Assembly (NCBI GenBank): GCA_012521575.1
Contig: JAAYMD010000048.1
Span: 1 to 40,061, forward strand
DNA length: 40,061 nt
Source: Mollicutes bacterium
GTDB lineage: Bacteria > Bacillota_I > Bacilli_A > RF39 > UBA660
Direction of reading: 5' to 3'
Of the stretch, positions 1,965-12,189 are shown piece after piece (the first letter of the stretch is position 1; each line of letters begins with the position of its first letter). The notes beneath the pieces were generated by a model that did no database searches, was not told the origin of the DNA, and saw only the letters and a program-made list of their open reading frames with translations. The position numbers and the translations under genes were made by a program.

Positions 1965-3632
1965 ATGGATAAAACAGTTGTAGTAAATTTTCGTAATATG
2001 ATTTCTAAATCATTTCCGATTGGAACTACTTTATATGAAGTAAGCAAAAGTTTTCAAAAACATTTTAATTATCCTATTTTAGTTGCACGTGTTAATAACG
2101 ATATTATGGATTTAAGTGAAAAATTAACCCAAAATTGTAATATTGATTTTTATGATCGAAGTAGTACCATAGGTAATGGTGTTTATGCTAGAAGCCTTTA
2201 TTTTATGCTCGTTTTAGCTGTCAAAAAAATTTTAGGAAATAATGCTGATGTAATTATTGAACATTCAATTGATAAAGGCGTTTATTGTGAAATAACAGGA
2301 GAGGATATTGATAAACCAATTATTGAAAAAATTGAAAATAAAATGCATGAAATTGTGCAGGAGGGACATTTATTTACTAAAATAAATGTTTCTAGATACG
2401 ATACAATTAGATATTTTAAAAAAATAAAAAGAATGGATAAAGTTAATGCTTTGAAGTATATTAGTAATAGTTACATCAATTTGTATCGTCTAGATAATTT
2501 ATATGATTATTTTTATAGTGAAATGGCTTATAGTACTAAAGACATTAATGATTTTAAATTAACATATATTAAAAATAATGTTTTTGTGTTAAGTTATCCT
2601 GATATTTATAATCCCGAATGTACATTAGATTATGTACATCATAAAAAGTTGTTTGATGCTTTTTTAGATTATACAAAATGGGGGCGTGTTTTAAACATTT
2701 CAACTGCAGCTGATTTGAATAAAGCAGTTTCAACGGGAAAATATGATGATTTAATTAGATTAGCTGAAGCATATTTTAACAGCCAATTAACTAGAGTAGC
2801 TGATGAAATCGCGTCACGTCGAAAAGATATAAAAATTGTTTTAATTGCGGGACCAACATCAAGTGGGAAAACCACAACTTCTAAAAAATTAGAAATTTAT
2901 TTGCAAAGTCATGGTTTAAAAACGCATCAAATTTCATTAGATAATTATTTTTTAAATCGTGAGGACACCCCTAAAGATAAAAATGGTAATTATGATTTTG
3001 AATCAATTCGTGCAATTGATTTGGAGCTTTTTAATCAACATTTAGTTAAATTATTAAATAACGAAAAAGTTCTATTACCAGAATTTAATTTTGTAACTGG
3101 TAAACGTGAATATAAAAATAATTGGTTACAATTAGGGGAAAATGACATTATTATTATTGAAGGTTTACATGCCCTAAATGAGGAGTTAACAATGTCGATT
3201 GAAAGAAAACACAAATATCATATTTATATAAGTCCTCTTACTCAATTAAACATTGATATTCATAATCGTATTCATACAAGTGATACGAGAAAATTAAGAA
3301 GAATTGTTCGCGATAATAAGTATCGTGGTTATAGTGTTTCTGATACATTAAAAATGTGGGATAAAATTAGAGATTCTGAAGAAAAACATATTTTCAAATA
3401 TCAAGATTTAGCAGATGTCATCATTAATTCTGCTTTAGTATATGAATTAGGAGTATTAAAAACTTATGTGGAACCACTTCTATTTTCAGTAGATGAAGAT
3501 GATGAGGTTTATCCTGAAGCAATAAGGTTAATTAATTTTTTGAGAAGTTTTTTACCAATACCAAGCGATAATGTGCCAAACGATTCAATTTTAAGAGAGT
3601 TTATAGGTGGCAGTTGTTTTTATGAAAAATAA
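1965..3632 (+). CDS. TGS-domain nucleoside (uridine) kinase-like protein
   Basis: TGS/ThrRS-like N-terminus followed by P-loop IAGPTSSGKTTTSKKLE and PRK/uridine kinase C-terminal half (IIIEGLHALNEELT). Confidence 0.85.
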   Translation: MDKTVVVNFRNMISKSFPIGTTLYEVSKSFQKHFNYPILVARVNNDIMDLSEKLTQNCNIDFYDRSSTIGNGVYARSLYFMLVLAVKKILGNNADVIIEHSIDKGVYCEITGEDIDKPIIEKIENKMHEIVQEGHLFTKINVSRYDTIRYFKKIKRMDKVNALKYISNSYINLYRLDNLYDYFYSEMAYSTKDINDFKLTYIKNNVFVLSYPDIYNPECTLDYVHHKKLFDAFLDYTKWGRVLNISTAADLNKAVSTGKYDDLIRLAEAYFNSQLTRVADEIASRRKDIKIVLIAGPTSSGKTTTSKKLEIYLQSHGLKTHQISLDNYFLNREDTPKDKNGNYDFESIRAIDLELFNQHLVKLLNNEKVLLPEFNFVTGKREYKNNWLQLGENDIIIIEGLHALNEELTMSIERKHKYHIYISPLTQLNIDIHNRIHTSDTRKLRRIVRDNKYRGYSVSDTLKMWDKIRDSEEKHIFKYQDLADVIINSALVYELGVLKTYVEPLLFSVDEDDEVYPEAIRLINFLRSFLPIPSDNVPNDSILREFIGGSCFYEK

Positions 3633-3649: not shown

Positions 3650-4663
3650 ATGAAGAAAGTTGCAATTAATGGTTTTGGAAGGATTGGAAGATTAATTTTT
3701 CGTTTGCTACAAGGTGATGAAAATTTAGAAGTTGTTGCTATTAATGATTTAACTGATGCTGAACAACTAGCTTACCTATTAAAATACGATACTAGTCATA
3801 GAAACTATATGCCTGATAAAATAAGTTATGACAATGACTACATTATTGTAGATGGTAAAAAAATAAAAATATTTTCAGAAAAAGATCCGAAAAATTTACC
3901 ATGGCAAGAGCTTGATATTGATTTAGTATTTGAATGTACAGGAATATTTAGAAGTAAAGAAAAAGCTATGGCCCATATCGAAGCGGGTGCTAAAAAAGTG
4001 ATTATTTCTGCACCAGCAAAAGGGAATGAAAAGGTAAAAACAATTGTTTATAATGTTAATCATGATATATTAGATGGTAGTGAAGAAGTAATAAGTGCGG
4101 CAAGTTGTACAACTAACTGCTTAGCACCAGTTGTCAATTTGTTAGATAAACATTTTGGAGTAAAAAAAGGATATATGACAACTGTTCACGCTTATACTAA
4201 TGATCAATCAATACTAGATCTTCCACATAAAAAAGGCGCAAATTCAAGGCGTGGGAGAGCTGCAGCGGCTAACATTATTCCATCATCAACGGGTGCTGCA
4301 AGTGCAATTGGGTTAGTTATACCAAAATTAAATGGAAAATTAGATGGAACTGCTCTTCGTGTTCCAACTACTACTGGGTCAATTGTTGATTTAACCGTTG
4401 AATTAGAAAAAAAAGTAAGTGTTGAAGAAGTAAATGAAATGTTTAAAGAGAATCAAAATGAAACAATTGCTTTTACCATGGATCCAATTGTATCAAGTGA
4501 TATTATTGGCTCGCATTTAGGTGCTCTTGTTGATGGTCAATTAACAAATGTGCTTGATGTTGATGGAAAACAATTGGTAAAAGTAATGGCTTGGTATGAT
4601 AATGAGATGGGTTATAGTGCTCAAATGGTTAGAGTTGCTAAACATTTATTAAGTTTAAAATAG
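3650..4663 (+). CDS. gap: Glyceraldehyde-3-phosphate dehydrogenase, type I
   Basis: KVAINGFGRIGR, AASCTTNCLAP and WYDNEMGYS. Confidence 0.97.
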   Translation: MKKVAINGFGRIGRLIFRLLQGDENLEVVAINDLTDAEQLAYLLKYDTSHRNYMPDKISYDNDYIIVDGKKIKIFSEKDPKNLPWQELDIDLVFECTGIFRSKEKAMAHIEAGAKKVIISAPAKGNEKVKTIVYNVNHDILDGSEEVISAASCTTNCLAPVVNLLDKHFGVKKGYMTTVHAYTNDQSILDLPHKKGANSRRGRAAAANIIPSSTGAASAIGLVIPKLNGKLDGTALRVPTTTGSIVDLTVELEKKVSVEEVNEMFKENQNETIAFTMDPIVSSDIIGSHLGALVDGQLTNVLDVDGKQLVKVMAWYDNEMGYSAQMVRVAKHLLSLK

Positions 4664-4687
4664 ATTGGAATTATCCAATCTTTTTTT
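4662..4687 (+). terminator. Rho-independent terminator overlapping the gap stop codon
   Basis: agattgga-atta-tccaatct followed by ttttttt. Confidence 0.75.
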
Positions 4688-4745
4688 AATACTTGAATAT
4701 TATAACAAAACAAGATAAAATAATAATTAGAAGATAGGTGGTTTA

Positions 4746-5801
4746 ATGAAGGAAAAAAAAGCGTTTACATTAGTTGAATTGCTTGGAGTAATAGTTATTT
4801 TAGGATTAATAGCAATAGCTACTTTTCCTAATATTATTACTTTATTAAAAAAATATGGAGAAAAAGATTATGAAAGATTTGTGAAAGATCTGCAACTTGT
4901 TACTGAAAGTTATGTTAATGATAACATTGATAAATTAAATTTAAAAGAACCTGGTGATGTAGAATTTATAGAATTAGGGGATTTGGTAAACGCTGGGTAT
5001 CTAAGTAAAAAAAAGATTAATCCAAAAACGGAAAAAGAAATTGAATTAAACACGACAATGATGGTAACAGTTTTAAATGATAAAACAAGAAATTATGAGT
5101 ATACAGGTGTAGTTAATGGTATTCAAAATTATCGAATTAATAATTTAAAAGTTATGTATGATGGATATAATAAATTAAAAGAAAATAATGGTCAAATTAT
5201 TTGGGAAGATGTAATGGGTAATATTGCTGGTGTTTTAATAAATGGAGCCGGTGTTGAAGATTGGTATGACAATCGAATTAAGTTATATGATATAGCTAAT
5301 TATATTCAAATTCCAGGATCATCTTCGTTAATTCCGTATGATTCAGATGTTACTATTGAAATTGTTTATGAAATACCTTCTGAAGGACAAGATTTAACAT
5401 TTAGGAATCAAGGTTTGGGACTTTATTATTTTGATTTGTATACTGATGGTTTAATTCTTTCAATGGTTAGAAATAGTACTGATACAGCCAATTATTGGCC
5501 AGCTGCTACTAGTTTGGCTATGCGTCAAATTAATAAAGTTCATACATTAGCAGTTACAATGAAAAAAAATGAAGATTTAATTAATTTTAATTATTATGGA
5601 GATGGTAAAGCTCTACAAATGAGTAGTGCCACCGGTTTAAAATATAATAATGATGATTTTACTATTGGAAAAGACTATACAACTGAAGCATCGGTTGTTA
5701 ATATATATGGCTTTAGGTTATATGATGCTGCGCTTACCGAAGAAGAGATTGCTAAAAATCATGAAATCGATATAAATAGATATAGTTGGAGGGGAAAATA
5801 A
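4746..5801 (+). CDS. Prepilin-like protein with LamG/concanavalin A-like C-terminal domain
   Basis: MKEKKAFTLVELLGVIVILGLIAIATFPNI is a type IV prepilin class III signal; C-terminus VNIYGFRLYDAALTEEEIAKNHEID resembles LamG-like domains. Confidence 0.8.
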   Translation: MKEKKAFTLVELLGVIVILGLIAIATFPNIITLLKKYGEKDYERFVKDLQLVTESYVNDNIDKLNLKEPGDVEFIELGDLVNAGYLSKKKINPKTEKEIELNTTMMVTVLNDKTRNYEYTGVVNGIQNYRINNLKVMYDGYNKLKENNGQIIWEDVMGNIAGVLINGAGVEDWYDNRIKLYDIANYIQIPGSSSLIPYDSDVTIEIVYEIPSEGQDLTFRNQGLGLYYFDLYTDGLILSMVRNSTDTANYWPAATSLAMRQINKVHTLAVTMKKNEDLINFNYYGDGKALQMSSATGLKYNNDDFTIGKDYTTEASVVNIYGFRLYDAALTEEEIAKNHEIDINRYSWRGK

Positions 5802-5804
5802 AAA

Positions 5805-6989
5805 ATGAAAAAGACAATAAAAGATTATGATTTAAAAGGGAAAAGAGTTATTATTAGATGTGATTTTAATGTACCAATTAAAGATGGAGTTATAACTGAT
5901 GATAATAGAATAATTGCAAGTTTAAAAACAATTAATTATGCCCTTGATAATGGCGCTAAAGTTATTTTGATGTCACATTTAGGCAGGATTAAAAGTGAAG
6001 AAGATAAAATGAAAAACTCATTGAAAGTAGTAGCAGATCGACTAAGTGAATTTTTAAATAAAGAAGTTATTTTTATTCCGGAAACAAGAGGAAGTAAGTT
6101 AGAAAATGCAGTTAAAAATTTAAAAGAAGGAGAAGTAATTTTAATTGAAAATACCAGATTTGAAGATTTTCCGCAAAAGCGTGAAAGTGGAAATGATCCA
6201 AAACTGGCCAAATATTGGGCCAATTTAGGGGATATTTTTATCAATGATGCTTTTGGAACTTCGCATCGCATGCACGCATCTAATGTGGGAATAGGTAGAC
6301 TTCTACCAAATGGTGTTGGATTTTTAGTAGAAAAAGAAATAAAAATGATAGGAGAAGTAATTAAAAATCCTAATCGTCCATTTATAGTTATTTTAGGTGG
6401 TGCCAAAGTTAGTGATAAAATAGGGGTTATTAAAAATTTAGTTAATATTGCTGATTATATTTTAATTGGTGGAGGAATGGCATATACTTTTTTGTGCGCT
6501 AAAGGTTTGGAAGTTGGAAGATCTATTGTAGATAAAGATAGTATTGATTTTTGTAAGGAAATTATGGAAAAATATAGCGAAAAAATAATTTTACCTGTTG
6601 ATGTTGTTTGTGGAAAAGAAATCGATGAAAATACGCAAACTACTCTTCGTTTAGTAGAAGAAATCGAAAATTCAGAAATGGGATTAGATATTGGACCAAA
6701 AACAGTTGAGTTATTTAAAAAATATTTAGAAAATTGCAAAACTGTTGTTTGGAATGGGCCGGTAGGAGTTTTTGAAATTGAAAAATTTAGTCACGGAACA
6801 AAAGCTCTTGCTGATATTTTAGCAAATCAAAATATAACAACAATTATTGGTGGTGGAGATACTGCTGCAGCTGTAATTCAAATGGGTTATAAAGATTCAT
6901 ATACTCATATTTCAACTGGTGGCGGAGCTTCGCTTGAAATGTTAGAAGGAAAAATTTTGCCAGGGATAGATGTTATTAACGAAAGATAG
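5805..6989 (+). CDS. pgk: Phosphoglycerate kinase
   Basis: GKRVIIRCDFNVPIKDG, LMSHLGR, IGGGDTAAAV and STGGGASLEMLEG. Confidence 0.97.
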   Translation: MKKTIKDYDLKGKRVIIRCDFNVPIKDGVITDDNRIIASLKTINYALDNGAKVILMSHLGRIKSEEDKMKNSLKVVADRLSEFLNKEVIFIPETRGSKLENAVKNLKEGEVILIENTRFEDFPQKRESGNDPKLAKYWANLGDIFINDAFGTSHRMHASNVGIGRLLPNGVGFLVEKEIKMIGEVIKNPNRPFIVILGGAKVSDKIGVIKNLVNIADYILIGGGMAYTFLCAKGLEVGRSIVDKDSIDFCKEIMEKYSEKIILPVDVVCGKEIDENTQTTLRLVEEIENSEMGLDIGPKTVELFKKYLENCKTVVWNGPVGVFEIEKFSHGTKALADILANQNITTIIGGGDTAAAVIQMGYKDSYTHISTGGGASLEMLEGKILPGIDVINER

Positions 6990-6999
6990 GAAATGACAA

Positions 7000-8241
7000 A
7001 TGAGAATAGGAATGTTTACTGATACTTATCCTCCGTTTATTAATGGGGTATCTACCAGTATTGTAGTTTTAAAAAAAGCTTTAGAGAAAAAAGGTCATGA
7101 GGTTTTTATTGTAACTGTTAATAATGAAAAAATTGGGTATGATTTATCCGATAAAAAAATTATTAGAATTCCTGGCATCCCAGTTGGTATTTATGATTAT
7201 CGATTATCAGGAATATACCCAATTAAAGTTATTAAAAAAATCAAAAAGCTTAATTTAGATGTTATTCATTCTCATACTGAATTTGGTGTTGGAACTTTTG
7301 CCCGACTTATATCCAAACAATACGATATACCTTTAGTACACACTTATCATACGATGTATGAAGATTATATTTCATCTGTAACTAAAGGATATCTTGACTG
7401 GCCAAGCAAACCAATAATTGCAGAATTAACTAAATTTTATTGCGATAAAACATCTTCTGAATTAATTGTTCCAACGAAAAAAACATATGATTTATTTAAG
7501 AAAAAATATAAAGTAGATCGTGATGTGCACATAATACCTAGTGGTATTGAAATAGAAAAATATTTTCGAGAAAATTATAATAAAGAAGATATTGAAGCTT
7601 TAAGAAAAAAAATGGGAATTAATAAAGAGGATTTTGTTATTTTATATGTTGGACGTTTAGGACAAGAAAAAAATGTAGAGTTTTTAATTGATGCCCATGT
7701 CGCGCTTGCAAGACAATATCATAATTGTAAATTATTAATTATTGGGGATGGACCGTTAATGGAAAAATTACAAAAAAAGGTTAGGTGCTATCGAATTGAA
7801 GAGTCTGTTATTTTTGGAGGAAAAGTTCCTTATGAAGAAGTAGGAATTTATTACCAGTTAGCTTCGGTTTTTGCAACGGCCTCAACTGCCGAAACGCAAG
7901 GATTAACAGTTATTGAAGCGCTTGCTGCATCGCTTCCAATAATTGTTATTAATGATGAAAGTTATGAAAGTGCTGTAGAAAATGAATATAATGGTTTTGT
8001 TTTTAAAAATAAAAGAGAATATCACAAACGAATTAAATTCTTAATGCAAAATCCTGATATTTTAAAAATAATGAAAGTTAATGCGCGAAACAGCTCCTTT
8101 AAACATTCCGCTGATTATTATGCTGATAGAGTGTTAGAAGTATATAAAATAGCTGTTGGAGATCGAAAAGTTAATGAAAAGAAAACTTATTTTAGTCGAT
8201 TGAAAAAGGTGGTGAGTGATAGTTGGAAAATAAAAAAATAG
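7000..8241 (+). CDS. GT4-family glycosyltransferase, probable 1,2-diacylglycerol 3-glucosyltransferase
   Basis: MRIGMFTDTYPPFINGVSTS, HTYHTMYEDY and ETQGLTVIEALAASLP, typical of the MGlcDAG synthase group. Confidence 0.85.
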   Translation: MRIGMFTDTYPPFINGVSTSIVVLKKALEKKGHEVFIVTVNNEKIGYDLSDKKIIRIPGIPVGIYDYRLSGIYPIKVIKKIKKLNLDVIHSHTEFGVGTFARLISKQYDIPLVHTYHTMYEDYISSVTKGYLDWPSKPIIAELTKFYCDKTSSELIVPTKKTYDLFKKKYKVDRDVHIIPSGIEIEKYFRENYNKEDIEALRKKMGINKEDFVILYVGRLGQEKNVEFLIDAHVALARQYHNCKLLIIGDGPLMEKLQKKVRCYRIEESVIFGGKVPYEEVGIYYQLASVFATASTAETQGLTVIEALAASLPIIVINDESYESAVENEYNGFVFKNKREYHKRIKFLMQNPDILKIMKVNARNSSFKHSADYYADRVLEVYKIAVGDRKVNEKKTYFSRLKKVVSDSWKIKK

Positions 8242-8957
8242 TTGTTGGTAATTTAAAATCAACGATGAATATAGAAGATGTAAGCAAATATTTACAGGTA
8301 ATAAATAAAGAAATTGCTAGCAAAGAAGTTATTATTTGTCCATCTAGTATTTATATTCCTTATTTTTTAAAGAAAAATTATCAAGTGGGTCTACAAAATA
8401 TTTTTTTAGATGAAGGGGGTCCATATACTGGTGAAATAACACCCACACAAGCTGTTAGTCTAGAAATAAGATATGCAATTGTAGGCCATAGTGAAAGAAG
8501 AATTCACTTAAATGAAACAGATGAAATAATTAATAAAAAAATAGTTGCAGCAATAAACAAAAATATGTATGTCATTTTATGTATTGGTGAAACTTTAGAA
8601 GAAAAAGAAATGCTTAGAACAGATATGGTAATTAGAAGACAGCTTGTTAATGCTTTAAATGGACTTTCAATAGATATGCTTTATAATGTTATTATTGCCT
8701 ATGAACCAGTTTGGGCGATTGGTACAAATAATATTCCAAGTATTAAAGAAATTGAAAAGACGGTTGAATATATAAAAAATGTTGTAAAGCAAATAAGTGG
8801 TTATGAAGATATTAAAGTCTTATACGGTGGAAGTGTTAATGAACATAATGTTAAAGAATTAAATAAAATAAATAATATTTCAGGATTTTTGGTTGGTGGT
8901 GCATCTACCAAAGCAGATAGTTTTTTAAAAATAATTGATGAAGTCATTCAAAAGTAA
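8223..8957 (+). CDS. tpiA: Triosephosphate isomerase (divergent N-terminal active-site loop)
   Basis: VVGNLKSTMN, AIVGHSERR, AYEPVWAIGT and VLYGGSV; TTG start inside the 3' end of the upstream gene. Confidence 0.92.
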   Translation: MENKKIVVGNLKSTMNIEDVSKYLQVINKEIASKEVIICPSSIYIPYFLKKNYQVGLQNIFLDEGGPYTGEITPTQAVSLEIRYAIVGHSERRIHLNETDEIINKKIVAAINKNMYVILCIGETLEEKEMLRTDMVIRRQLVNALNGLSIDMLYNVIIAYEPVWAIGTNNIPSIKEIEKTVEYIKNVVKQISGYEDIKVLYGGSVNEHNVKELNKINNISGFLVGGASTKADSFLKIIDEVIQK

Positions 8958-8967
8958 TGACTTTTTT
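8941..8967 (+). terminator. Rho-independent terminator overlapping the tpi stop
   Basis: agtcatt-caaaagt-aatgact plus T7. Confidence 0.7.
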
Positions 8968-9265
8968 TGCTTTTTATGATTTTTTTTAAATATTTAATAC
9001 CTAGTTAAAAACACAAAATTTATATTTTTTTAATTTTAGGTAAAATAAATTTTAAAATGCAAAGATTTTTTTAAAATGATTTATAGAATAAATTATAGAT
9101 TTCAATAAATTCATTATTATAATTGTCATATTAGATAATAAGTATAAATTAGAAATATATGATTATATTAAAATTAGGGATTGAAATGTATGAAAAATGC
9201 ATATTTTTATAATAACATAATGCAAAATATTTTGATTATCACGGTGAAATACATTAAAAATATAA

Positions 9266-10062
9266 AAAGTAGAGCGCTTTATTATTATGATAGTAATAGT
9301 AGTGCTAGCAATAATTATGGCAATAACTGTACCATTAGTATTAAATACAATAGAAGAAGCGAAAAAAGGAGCTTTTAAAAGTTCAGTATATGCAATGGTA
9401 AAAGCCGTAGAATTAGAATATATAAAGCAAGTATTACAAGGTGTAAAAACAAATGAGATAATTTACACCTATGAAAATGGAGAAGAAACATCTAGTATAG
9501 GTAAGCAGTTAGGAATAAAAGGAACAAAACCAAAAAACGGAGAAATAAGAATAAACAATGAAGGAGAAGTTGCATTAGCAATCCATGATGGGACGTATTG
9601 TGCTTTACATTCATATAATGTATATCCCATTTTGCAAGTACAACCCATAATATTTATGGAATATATGATATGAGTGACGGAGCTTGGGAAAGAGTAGCAG
9701 CATATATAGATAATGGAAATAGTTATTTATCAAATGGCCAAAGCATAATAAATGCCAATTCAAAATATAAGGATGTATATATAATGGGAACAAGTGATAC
9801 TCAAGCAGATAATTATTTAACAAATGCCAATAAATATGGAGAGGCTATATACGAAACAAGTAATGGAAATGATAGTTCTAATTCGTGGTATAATGATTAT
9901 TCACGCATGCCGTATTCTGGATATTCATGGTTTCCGCGTGGCGGCCGTTATGACAGTGATGTGAGCGGTGGTGTGTTTAGCTTCAGCCTAAACGATGGTG
10001 ATGTATTCTCATATTACAGTTTTCGCCCGGTAGTTATTGCTACTACAATTTCTGCACCATAG
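9266..10062 (+). pseudogene. Disrupted type IV pilin-like gene with FGE-sulfatase/C-type-lectin-like C-terminal domain
   Basis: ORF 9287-9673 begins inside the pilin hydrophobic helix (MIVIVVLAIIMAITVPLVLNTIEEAKKGAF), lacks the FTLIE motif and has an in-frame TAA just upstream at 9263. A frame change near 9600-9670 leads to ASTTHNIYGIYDMSDGAWERVAAY...WFPRGGRYDSDVSGGVFSF...SFRPVV. Confidence 0.72.
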
Positions 10063-10281
10063 CTAAAGCATAAAAGGTTTTTTCTTGTTTTTTTGACAAA
10101 AGCCCTGCCGTTTAGTAGGTGGTGTGTATTGAGTAGTGGTGAATAAGATCATGAAATTTGAAACTATGATGGTACATGCGATTGGCATAAAAAGGTCTAA
10201 ATGATGAAAATTTTGTAAATATATTTTTGAAACGAATAATATTTTTTGGAATATTAAGTAAGCTTCGTATATAATGATTAG

Positions 10282-10316
10282 GAGACTAAAATAAATTTTT
10301 TTAGTCTCATTTTTTT
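10282..10316 (+). terminator. Rho-independent terminator upstream of spo0A
   Basis: gagactaaaa / ttttagtctc perfect stem followed by T7. Confidence 0.8.
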
Positions 10317-10362
10317 GTAAAAAATTGATGAAAAAATTTTGTTTCTAAAAGATATTTTAAAT

Positions 10363-10369
10363 CCGACAA
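10363..10369. promoter_or_regulatory. Candidate Spo0A box (one mismatch)
   Basis: tccgaca versus the reverse 0A-box consensus ttcgaca, about 50 bp upstream of the spo0A -10-like tataat at 10413-10418. Confidence 0.3.
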
Positions 10370-10456
10370 AAAAAGATAAATTATTCTCTAGTCAAAAAAT
10401 GTAAAGGTGTGTTATAATTAAGATACGTGAGTGCAGTACTTTGAAGGGAGAATGAT

Positions 10457-11221
10457 ATGGAAAAAATACGTGTTTTAATGATTGACGATAATGTCAATCT
10501 AGTTGGAATGATTAAGGAGTACTTTGGCAGTCACGATTTTATTAGTATCGATTTTGAGGCCTATGATGGGGCAGAAGGAATCGATCTGATTGAAAAAAAA
10601 CAGGAGCAGTATGATGTAATCATTTTAGATTTGATCATGCCTAATAAGGATGGAATGTATGTTTTAGAAGAAATGAAAAAAAGGGGGATCGATAAGAAAG
10701 TTATTGTTGCCACTAGTTATAATGCAAATGAGATTATTAGGGAAGTATCTGAATATGGTGTTAGTTACTTTATCTTAAAACCATTTGATTTAGCTGATTT
10801 GGAAAAACGAATTATCGAATGTCAAAATAAAGAAAAAACCAGAAAAGCAATTGACTTTCACCATAACAATTTACAAATATCGATTAGCAGAATTTTGCAC
10901 GAATTAGGTATACCTTCCCATATAAAAGGATATCAATACATCAGAGAGGCAATTACAATTATATATGATAATCCTGAGATAATTGGTGGCATAACTAAAG
11001 AACTCTATCCTGAATTAGCAGAAAGGTTCGACACTATTGTTTCAAGAGTCGAACGTGCTATTAGGCATGCCATAGAAGTAAGCTGGAATAGGGGCAATTG
11101 GGAGATGATGGAAGAAATTTTTGGGCATAGTGTTGATATTGATAAAGCTAAGCCCACTAATTCTGAGTTTATCGTTACCATTGCCGATAAGTTAAGATTA
11201 GAGTATCACAAAGTAGGGTGA
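10457..11221 (+). CDS. spo0A: Sporulation transcription factor Spo0A
   Basis: Receiver domain ([21 protein letters not shown]) plus Spo0A effector: [41 protein letters not shown]. Confidence 0.97.
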
Positions 11222-11295: not shown

Positions 11296-12189
11296 GTGAT
11301 TTTTGTGAAACGAATTTTTATTGTTAATCCTATTTCAGGTAATGGCAAAGCATTGAAAATTGCTAAGGTAATTAAAGAAATATGTAATAGTGAAAACCTT
11401 GAACATGAAATTATATATACTGCTGGGCCAAAGGATGCAACAGAGATTGCAAAAAAATTTCGAGGGGAACTGGGACAATATATTGTTTATAGTGTAGGAG
11501 GCGATGGAGTTTTAAATGAAGTTGTAAATGGGATTATTAATAGTGGTACAATTTTAGGGGTTATTCCTGCCGGAACGGGAAATGATTTTTCACGAATGAT
11601 TAGGCCAACTAGCGAAACTTTATTTCGTAAAATAGATGTAGGCAGAGTTAATAACCGTTATTTCATTAATATTGCGTCACTTGGACTTGATGCTAAAATT
11701 GCTGAGTGTGCAAATAATTTAAAAGGAAAAAAGATACCTACAGAACTAGTTTATTATTTGAGTATAATTAATGAATTTATAAAATTAGATAGTGTCAAGT
11801 TAAAAGTTGATAAAAGAGAAAATTTTGATGATTATACTTTATTATCCGTTTGCAACGCTACTTATTATGGTGGAGGTTTAGCCCTTGCTCCCAAAGCTTC
11901 TTTAAATGATGGTCTTTTTGATGTTTATGAACTTCCAAAAGTAAATAGAATTAAACTTTTAAAGATGTTTAGTTTATTATTAAAAGGGCTACATGAAAAA
12001 TCAAAGCTAGTTAATTACTGGAAAACTGATTATTTTGAAGTTGAGTCACCACAAAAAATAATATGTAATATAGATGGTGAAATAATAATGGATAAAAAAT
12101 TTGTTTTCGAAAATATCAGGAAAAGTTTATATTTAATAAATAATGATCATCCTAAATTAAAGAGTTTAAATAAAAATTTCCAAAAATAA
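11296..12189 (+). CDS. YegS/DagK-family diacylglycerol/lipid kinase
   Basis: IFIVNPISGNGKA, VGGDGVLNEVVNGI, GVIPAGTGNDFSR; start may be the GTG at 11305. Confidence 0.9.
   Translation: MIFVKRIFIVNPISGNGKALKIAKVIKEICNSENLEHEIIYTAGPKDATEIAKKFRGELGQYIVYSVGGDGVLNEVVNGIINSGTILGVIPAGTGNDFSRMIRPTSETLFRKIDVGRVNNRYFINIASLGLDAKIAECANNLKGKKIPTELVYYLSIINEFIKLDSVKLKVDKRENFDDYTLLSVCNATYYGGGLALAPKASLNDGLFDVYELPKVNRIKLLKMFSLLLKGLHEKSKLVNYWKTDYFEVESPQKIICNIDGEIIMDKKFVFENIRKSLYLINNDHPKLKSLNKNFQK

Follow-up and report, generated by a model that had tools for sequence, protein, structure and literature searches.

In the MAG G000 (936 kb, 95 contigs, 98% complete), contig C50 carries a gene that begins as a pilin, changes its frame and ends as a lectin-like domain. 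The whole stretch of 40,061 nucleotides that was analysed is called the window. What kind of gene is this? The original prediction had described a broken pilin gene with an FGE-sulfatase/C-type-lectin-like C-terminal part and had offered two readings, a silent donor cassette analogous to pilS loci or a recently decayed surface display protein.

A broken prepilin gene between tpiA and spo0A

The features of the locus, all on the plus strand, are:

8223..8957, tpiA (triosephosphate isomerase), left neighbour; Pfam TIM 4e-71, syntenic in the congener G001
8970..10364, lineage-specific segment holding the broken gene, missing from G001 (blastn)
9287..9673, N-terminal fragment (prepilin helix, pilin head) that lacks start codon, leader and GFTLIEL; 77% amino acid and 86% nucleotide identity to the C45 prepilin
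9604..9633, 30-nt filler at a deletion scar, with about 250 residues gone and the downstream frame shifted; from the alignment with the intact C93 and L071 and the fragments C45 and C36
9634..10062, in the other frame, FGE/C-type-lectin domain (C-terminal half); 60% amino acid identity to C36, family fold matching TaqVP
9913..10034, remnant of a variable region (VR) of a diversity-generating retroelement (DGR); 122-nt alignment to the template-like C6
10063..10115, decayed 3' flank of the window copy, where C25 has two hairpins
10282..10316, hairpin with a T run, like an intrinsic terminator, where the inserted segment ends; sequence inspection
10457..11221, spo0A, right neighbour; Pfam Spo0A_C 3e-40, Response_reg 9e-22

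Positions 4002-8969 and 10365-11217 of the window match contiguous DNA in G001 by blastn. The interval between tpiA and spo0A measures about 110 bp in G001, and the window carries an extra segment of about 1.4 kb there. An insertion of 8970-10364 in the window lineage would be a simpler reading than a loss in G001. When the window was searched for an RNA element or a tRNA, none was found.

As had been recognised originally, the gene at 9287-10062 is broken; it joins a prepilin to a lectin-type domain, of which the C-terminal half is left. Its first frame begins within the pilin helix (FIIMIVIVVLAIIMAITVPLVLN), and the codons for FTLIEL are gone; an in-frame stop, also noticed before, lies just upstream at 9263-9265. 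Start, leader and the GFTLIE motif have been deleted in this copy. The second frame (open reading frame 9670-10062) reads ASTTHNIYGIYDMSDGAWE...FPRGGRYDSDVSGGVFSFSLNDGDVFSYYSFRPVV and stops at 10062. The frame change predicted near 9600-9670 is no point frameshift, for the intact paralogs identify it as a deletion scar: the homology to the C45 prepilin ends at 9603, that to C36 begins at 9634, and the 30-nt filler lies between. The lost middle comprises the stalk and the first half of the FGE domain. Both parts are separated by about 250 residues in intact relatives such as C93 of the same genome (520 amino acids) and contig C3 of G019 (504 amino acids).

A deletion on the 750-bp scale with a filler rules out a sequencing error or a programmed frameshift as the cause of the two frames. 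Two deletions have struck the gene and its 3' hairpin is lost; in the nearest relative that has the locus, the site is empty. This also speaks against the sequencing error that the original prediction had considered. We conclude that the window gene is a genuine pseudogene, in itself an ordinary one. For the N-terminal part compared with C45, dN/dS was 0.106/0.414. Most of the divergence from C45 thus arose under constraint, and the decay is probably younger.

Some observations concern the neighbourhood. Spo0A was found at E<=1e-30 in two of the four genomes of the window genus, a side note on G002 and G003. A diacylglycerol kinase/YegS gene lies at 11296-12189 between spo0A and gpmI, and at its position in G001 the last ~55 codons alone remain, a gene remnant in the relative. 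Between gap and pgk, the window holds at 4746-5801 an intact prepilin of 351 amino acids fused to a Laminin_G_3 (concanavalin-like lectin) domain, which is another prepilin-lectin fusion in the same operon; G001 has a prepilin open reading frame at the same place.

Paralogs in the window genome

Counted from searches and selected stretches of the genome, at least seven paralogous loci were found in the paralog search proposed with the original prediction, and the strength of the matches rules out a chance resemblance. The C-terminal open reading frame matched seven other places, down to E=5e-46 (C36, C55, C93, C53, C25, C44 and C6), and the N-terminal one matched eight, at best with 1.6e-52 (C45, C31, C63, C89, C93, C32, C72 and C44); C68 is a further match at the DNA level. 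Contigs C55, C53, C25 and C6 open at base 1-4 with C-terminal halves, C36 runs off its contig end, the N-terminal parts of C68 and C63 also run off contig ends, and C45 stops mid-domain at the contig start. The assembler broke inside the paralogs, as is usual when a family is repeated or polymorphic. In C93, as in the C93 orthologs of G001 and G002, the C-terminus is conserved and does not vary.

The window copy is accompanied by a second, more decayed one on C44 (L033, contig bases 21000-21700) with stops in both parts. C45 (L036), of all prepilin genes the one closest to the window copy, has a frame break too, at ~475-510 beside a GAACAR hexamer repeat, which may be a second pseudogene or a phase switch. 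In another genus, a decayed target copy on the minus strand (L072, G019:C79 from base 3000, ~452-1104) breaks its frame at the STTGNIYG motif, just where the window copy does.

Pilin anchor and lectin fold

A profile built from 39 relatives matched type IV pilins over residues 9-98 (PilE1 1.3e-8) and TaqVP (5VF4) over 261-414 (0.0013). 5VF4 is a DGR variable protein of Thermus aquaticus with the FGE-type C-type-lectin fold (PMC6328139). A structure prediction, originally proposed for the joined protein, was run with AlphaFold on the intact target of G100 (L197) and gave, at a pLDDT of 87, a helix at 11-62, a small beta head and a lectin domain with the VR at the C-terminus. When this model was submitted to Foldseek, the best PDB matches were TaqVP chains (1.4e-10). 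The intact relatives score above the TIGR02532 cut-off, which together with the helix 11-62 and the PilE1 profile match gives them type IV prepilin features; the intact N-terminus of C45 matches N_methyl with 2.4e-8.

On contig C55 of the window genome, a PilB-like ATPase and a prepilin peptidase adjoin each other. Judged from the sequence, the protein would be displayed by a pilus or pseudopilus, and its lectin domain would serve in binding. A phage origin was rejected: the full-length target of G019 found no relative in IMG/VR by that query, and the L197 target had no match in 50,697 phage records. Many tail fibres are among the phage proteins of related fold, as the shared lectin fold would lead one to expect.

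Paralogs differ at adenines of a template-like copy

The C-terminal ends of the paralogs were compared over a core of 121-122 bp, and C6 (RGGNYNNGTNAGAFNFNNSNGNANSNNSFRPVV, with AAY as Asn codons) was taken as the template-like copy. C25 differs from C6 at 15 positions, 14 of them C6 adenines (p=2e-7), in an otherwise unchanged GC-rich segment. With C53, 18 of 23 differences fell on adenines (p=9e-7, an 18-nt insertion set aside), and with C55 11 of 17 (p=0.002). When template and target were swapped, the adenine bias was gone (1/27 and 2/34). A GC-rich C-terminal repeat that differs mostly at template adenines in three paralogs is the signature of a DGR.

The VR remnant of the window copy has 46 mismatches to C6, with a weak bias to template adenines (19/46, p=0.034). 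Among the 27 non-adenine mismatches, 20 are C>T or G>A, which amounts to drift in an AT-rich genome. In C6 itself (L028, 3-149), the template-like VR has kept nearly all adenines and lies in an apparent target gene, with a decayed hairpin in its 3' flank. This flank derives from a target gene, no RT follows, and the locus has neither a TR flank nor an intact hairpin. C6 looks like a template-like state in a target gene and is a candidate template; the true template was not found.

Complete DGRs in relatives of the same family

When G000 was searched with the RVT_1 family and with the DGR reverse transcriptases (RTs) of two relatives, no reverse transcriptase was found; it may lie on a missing contig, since this MAG consists of 95 contigs. 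In two of the three congeners, no DGR reverse transcriptase was found either. Live copies in the window genome may still be mutagenised.

The complete DGR, with RT, Avd, template repeat (TR), VR and post-VR hairpin, is present in relatives of the same family. On contig C75 of G017 (L068), the VR, a MutS_I-like open reading frame, the TR, Avd and the RT follow in series, and 17 of 18 VR mismatches fall on TR adenines. An RT with TR/VR was found in L068, L148, L154-L157, L160, L163, L165, L197, L199, L228 and L245. Mismatches at TR adenines numbered 15/15 in G100, 17/18 in G180, 14/15 in G132 and 23/25 in G248; further pairs gave 11/11 (G161), 15/16 (G183) and 22/29 (G125), and the named records L199, L228, L245 and L242 gave 16/17, 10/10, 21/21 and 21/25. 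The RT of the relatives matches RVT_1. Their Avd matches Pfam bAvd (4.9e-15 and 4.7e-22) and the PHROG Avd (3e-27), and it passes the NCBIfam NF033474 cut-off of 80 with 83.8 bits. An open reading frame near the TR recurs in the DGR cassettes of the family (L068 751-1167, MutS_I-like with E 2.6e-4; L069 363-722) and may be an accessory gene.

The DGR of Bordetella phage BPP-1 needs a hairpin directly downstream of the VR (PMC3240598). A hairpin after the VR and absent after the TR was seen in G100 (three targets, identical), G161, G248, G019 and G180; in G100, TAGTCG-CTAG-CGACTA stands directly 3' of all three VRs and not after the TR. In the window genome, the 3' flank of C25 contains two perfect hairpins, GGCACAAAAGC-AAA-GCTTTTGTGCC and TCGGGC-GAAA-GCCCGA. 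Within 110 nt, the window copy has no hairpin with a stem of at least 6 bp. Since the BPP-1 element requires such a hairpin, the window copy is also without its recognition element.

One template and several prepilin targets

RT-linked, TR-proven targets with a GFTLIE-type leader were found in G100, G132, G248, L199 and L228. The single TR found in G100 matches three unlinked prepilin VRs, with 15/15, 23/24 and 19/27 mismatches at adenines, the latter two on other contigs. Part of the related targets in the family carry other membrane anchors in place of the prepilin leader.

Targets occur in 107 of the 243 genomes of the family. They were found in 35 of the 40 genomes with the strong RT clade (E<1e-50) and in 72 of the 203 without it (Fisher p=9e-10, uncorrected for relatedness). 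We lean towards the view that a single DGR works in trans on a dispersed multigene prepilin-lectin family in this large uncultured Bacilli family, so that each cell would show several independently mutated binding tips via a type IV pilus-like machine. The window gene would then be a dead member of the repertoire, a case of target-gene birth and death.

A probable decayed DGR target

The window gene is best explained as a whole, with a probability of about 0.87, as a former DGR target that has become a pseudogene. When intact, the protein is a type IV prepilin, with the GFTLIEL leader, a long alpha-1 helix and a small pilin head, and is joined at its C-terminal end to a C-type-lectin domain of the FGE type. 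An error-prone reverse transcriptase of the relatives copies the nearby template repeat with randomised adenines, and the mutated cDNA takes the place of the final ~120-150 bp in one target gene or several, so that the loops exposed on the lectin domain change. Several unlinked targets can be served by a single template. The window copy would have entered the tpiA-spo0A interval as one entire gene unit once G001 had split off. It has since lost its start, its leader, the middle part and the post-VR hairpin. Because of these losses it can be neither exported nor recognised by a DGR. The observations beneath this explanation are the family, the adenine signature, the RT, Avd, TR and VR of the relatives, the fold and the decay. 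The originally proposed DGR-type variable domain and the recently decayed surface display protein are both borne out by the paralogs, the FGE-type lectin fold, the adenine-specific mutations and the complete DGR in relatives.

Under the other original reading, the broken copy would persist as a store of segments that pass to an expressed pilin by gene conversion. A multi-copy family with a start-less copy would suit such a pilS-like donor, and so would the 86% identity of the N-terminal part to C45. However, when the DNA was aligned with eight same-genome copies or their flanks, as had been suggested for the detection of conversion tracts, the longest exact shared tract was 25 nt and the identity was even along the alignment. 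The copies vary at template adenines in their last 120 bp and not in cassettes, which is variation by reverse transcription from a template repeat. The window copy is also without half of the lectin domain, and the locus is missing from G001. We reject the donor for its short shared tracts and even divergence and regard it as very improbable.

It is improbable, too, that the gene is the ordinary pseudogene of a non-variable pilin family, with C-terminal differences due to plain divergence and with the DGRs of the relatives unconnected. A non-variable C-terminus does occur in C93 and in the C93 orthologs of G001 and G002, and no RT was found in the window MAG. Neutral divergence, however, does not place 14 of 15 mismatches of C25 on C6 adenines while the rest of the GC-rich segment is unchanged, and in relatives proteins of the same architecture are proven targets of a DGR that comes with RT, Avd, TR and hairpin. 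An assembly or binning artefact that stitched together pieces of different paralogs is hardly credible. The paralogs at contig ends do indicate that the assembler struggled with the family, but the window locus is internal to a 40-kb contig and its flanks are syntenic with G001. It is also clearly diverged from every paralog compared and is therefore not a join of their sequences.

Comparison with known systems

DGRs, lectin targets and multi-target cases are already known. DGR surveys seek the target beside the reverse transcriptase. One large survey notes that remote targets escape its approach (PMC8144416), and another speaks of putative pilin structures in connection with DUF1566 targets (PMC6642488). 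A literature search of partial coverage returned no description of a type IV prepilin leader on DGR targets of Bacilli. With many unlinked targets that have a recognisable prepilin leader, one could count from sequence alone how far a single DGR reaches over a gene family, and dead copies like the window gene would record the turnover of targets.

The relatives share with the DGRs of the BPP-1 type an RVT_1-type RT, Avd, adenine-specific TR/VR pairs, C-type-lectin targets with the VR at their 3' end, and a hairpin after the VR but not after the TR. Unlike BPP-1, they are chromosomal, their targets have a type IV prepilin leader, and in at least one genome several unlinked targets share a template; a further difference of the window genome is that it yielded no RT. 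Among the hairpins, some stems and loops depart from the published 7-10 bp with a GRNA loop (PMC3240598). Both the profile (E 0.0013) and the fold comparison (E 1.4e-10) give TaqVP of Thermus aquaticus (PDB 5VF4, PMC6328139) as the closest solved relative of the C-terminal domain. TaqVP is a single-domain protein, whereas the domain of this family is carried by a prepilin.

As in the antigenic variation of Neisseria pilE/pilS, there is a multi-copy pilin family with defective copies; unlike there, conversion tracts are lacking and the variability is template adenine mutagenesis at the C-terminal lectin domain. A passage in a review (PMC12632263) reports from Macadangdang et al. that Bacteroides DGRs diversify type V tip pilins. 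Both cases have in common the DGR diversification of a pilus-borne ligand-binding domain, but the Bacteroides pili are of type V (lipoprotein, Bacteroidota) and the proteins described here have a type IV prepilin leader in Bacilli. If they are exported by a type IV machine, they would represent a targeted hypermutation of pilus-borne lectins in Bacilli, the counterpart of the Bacteroides type V tip pilins.
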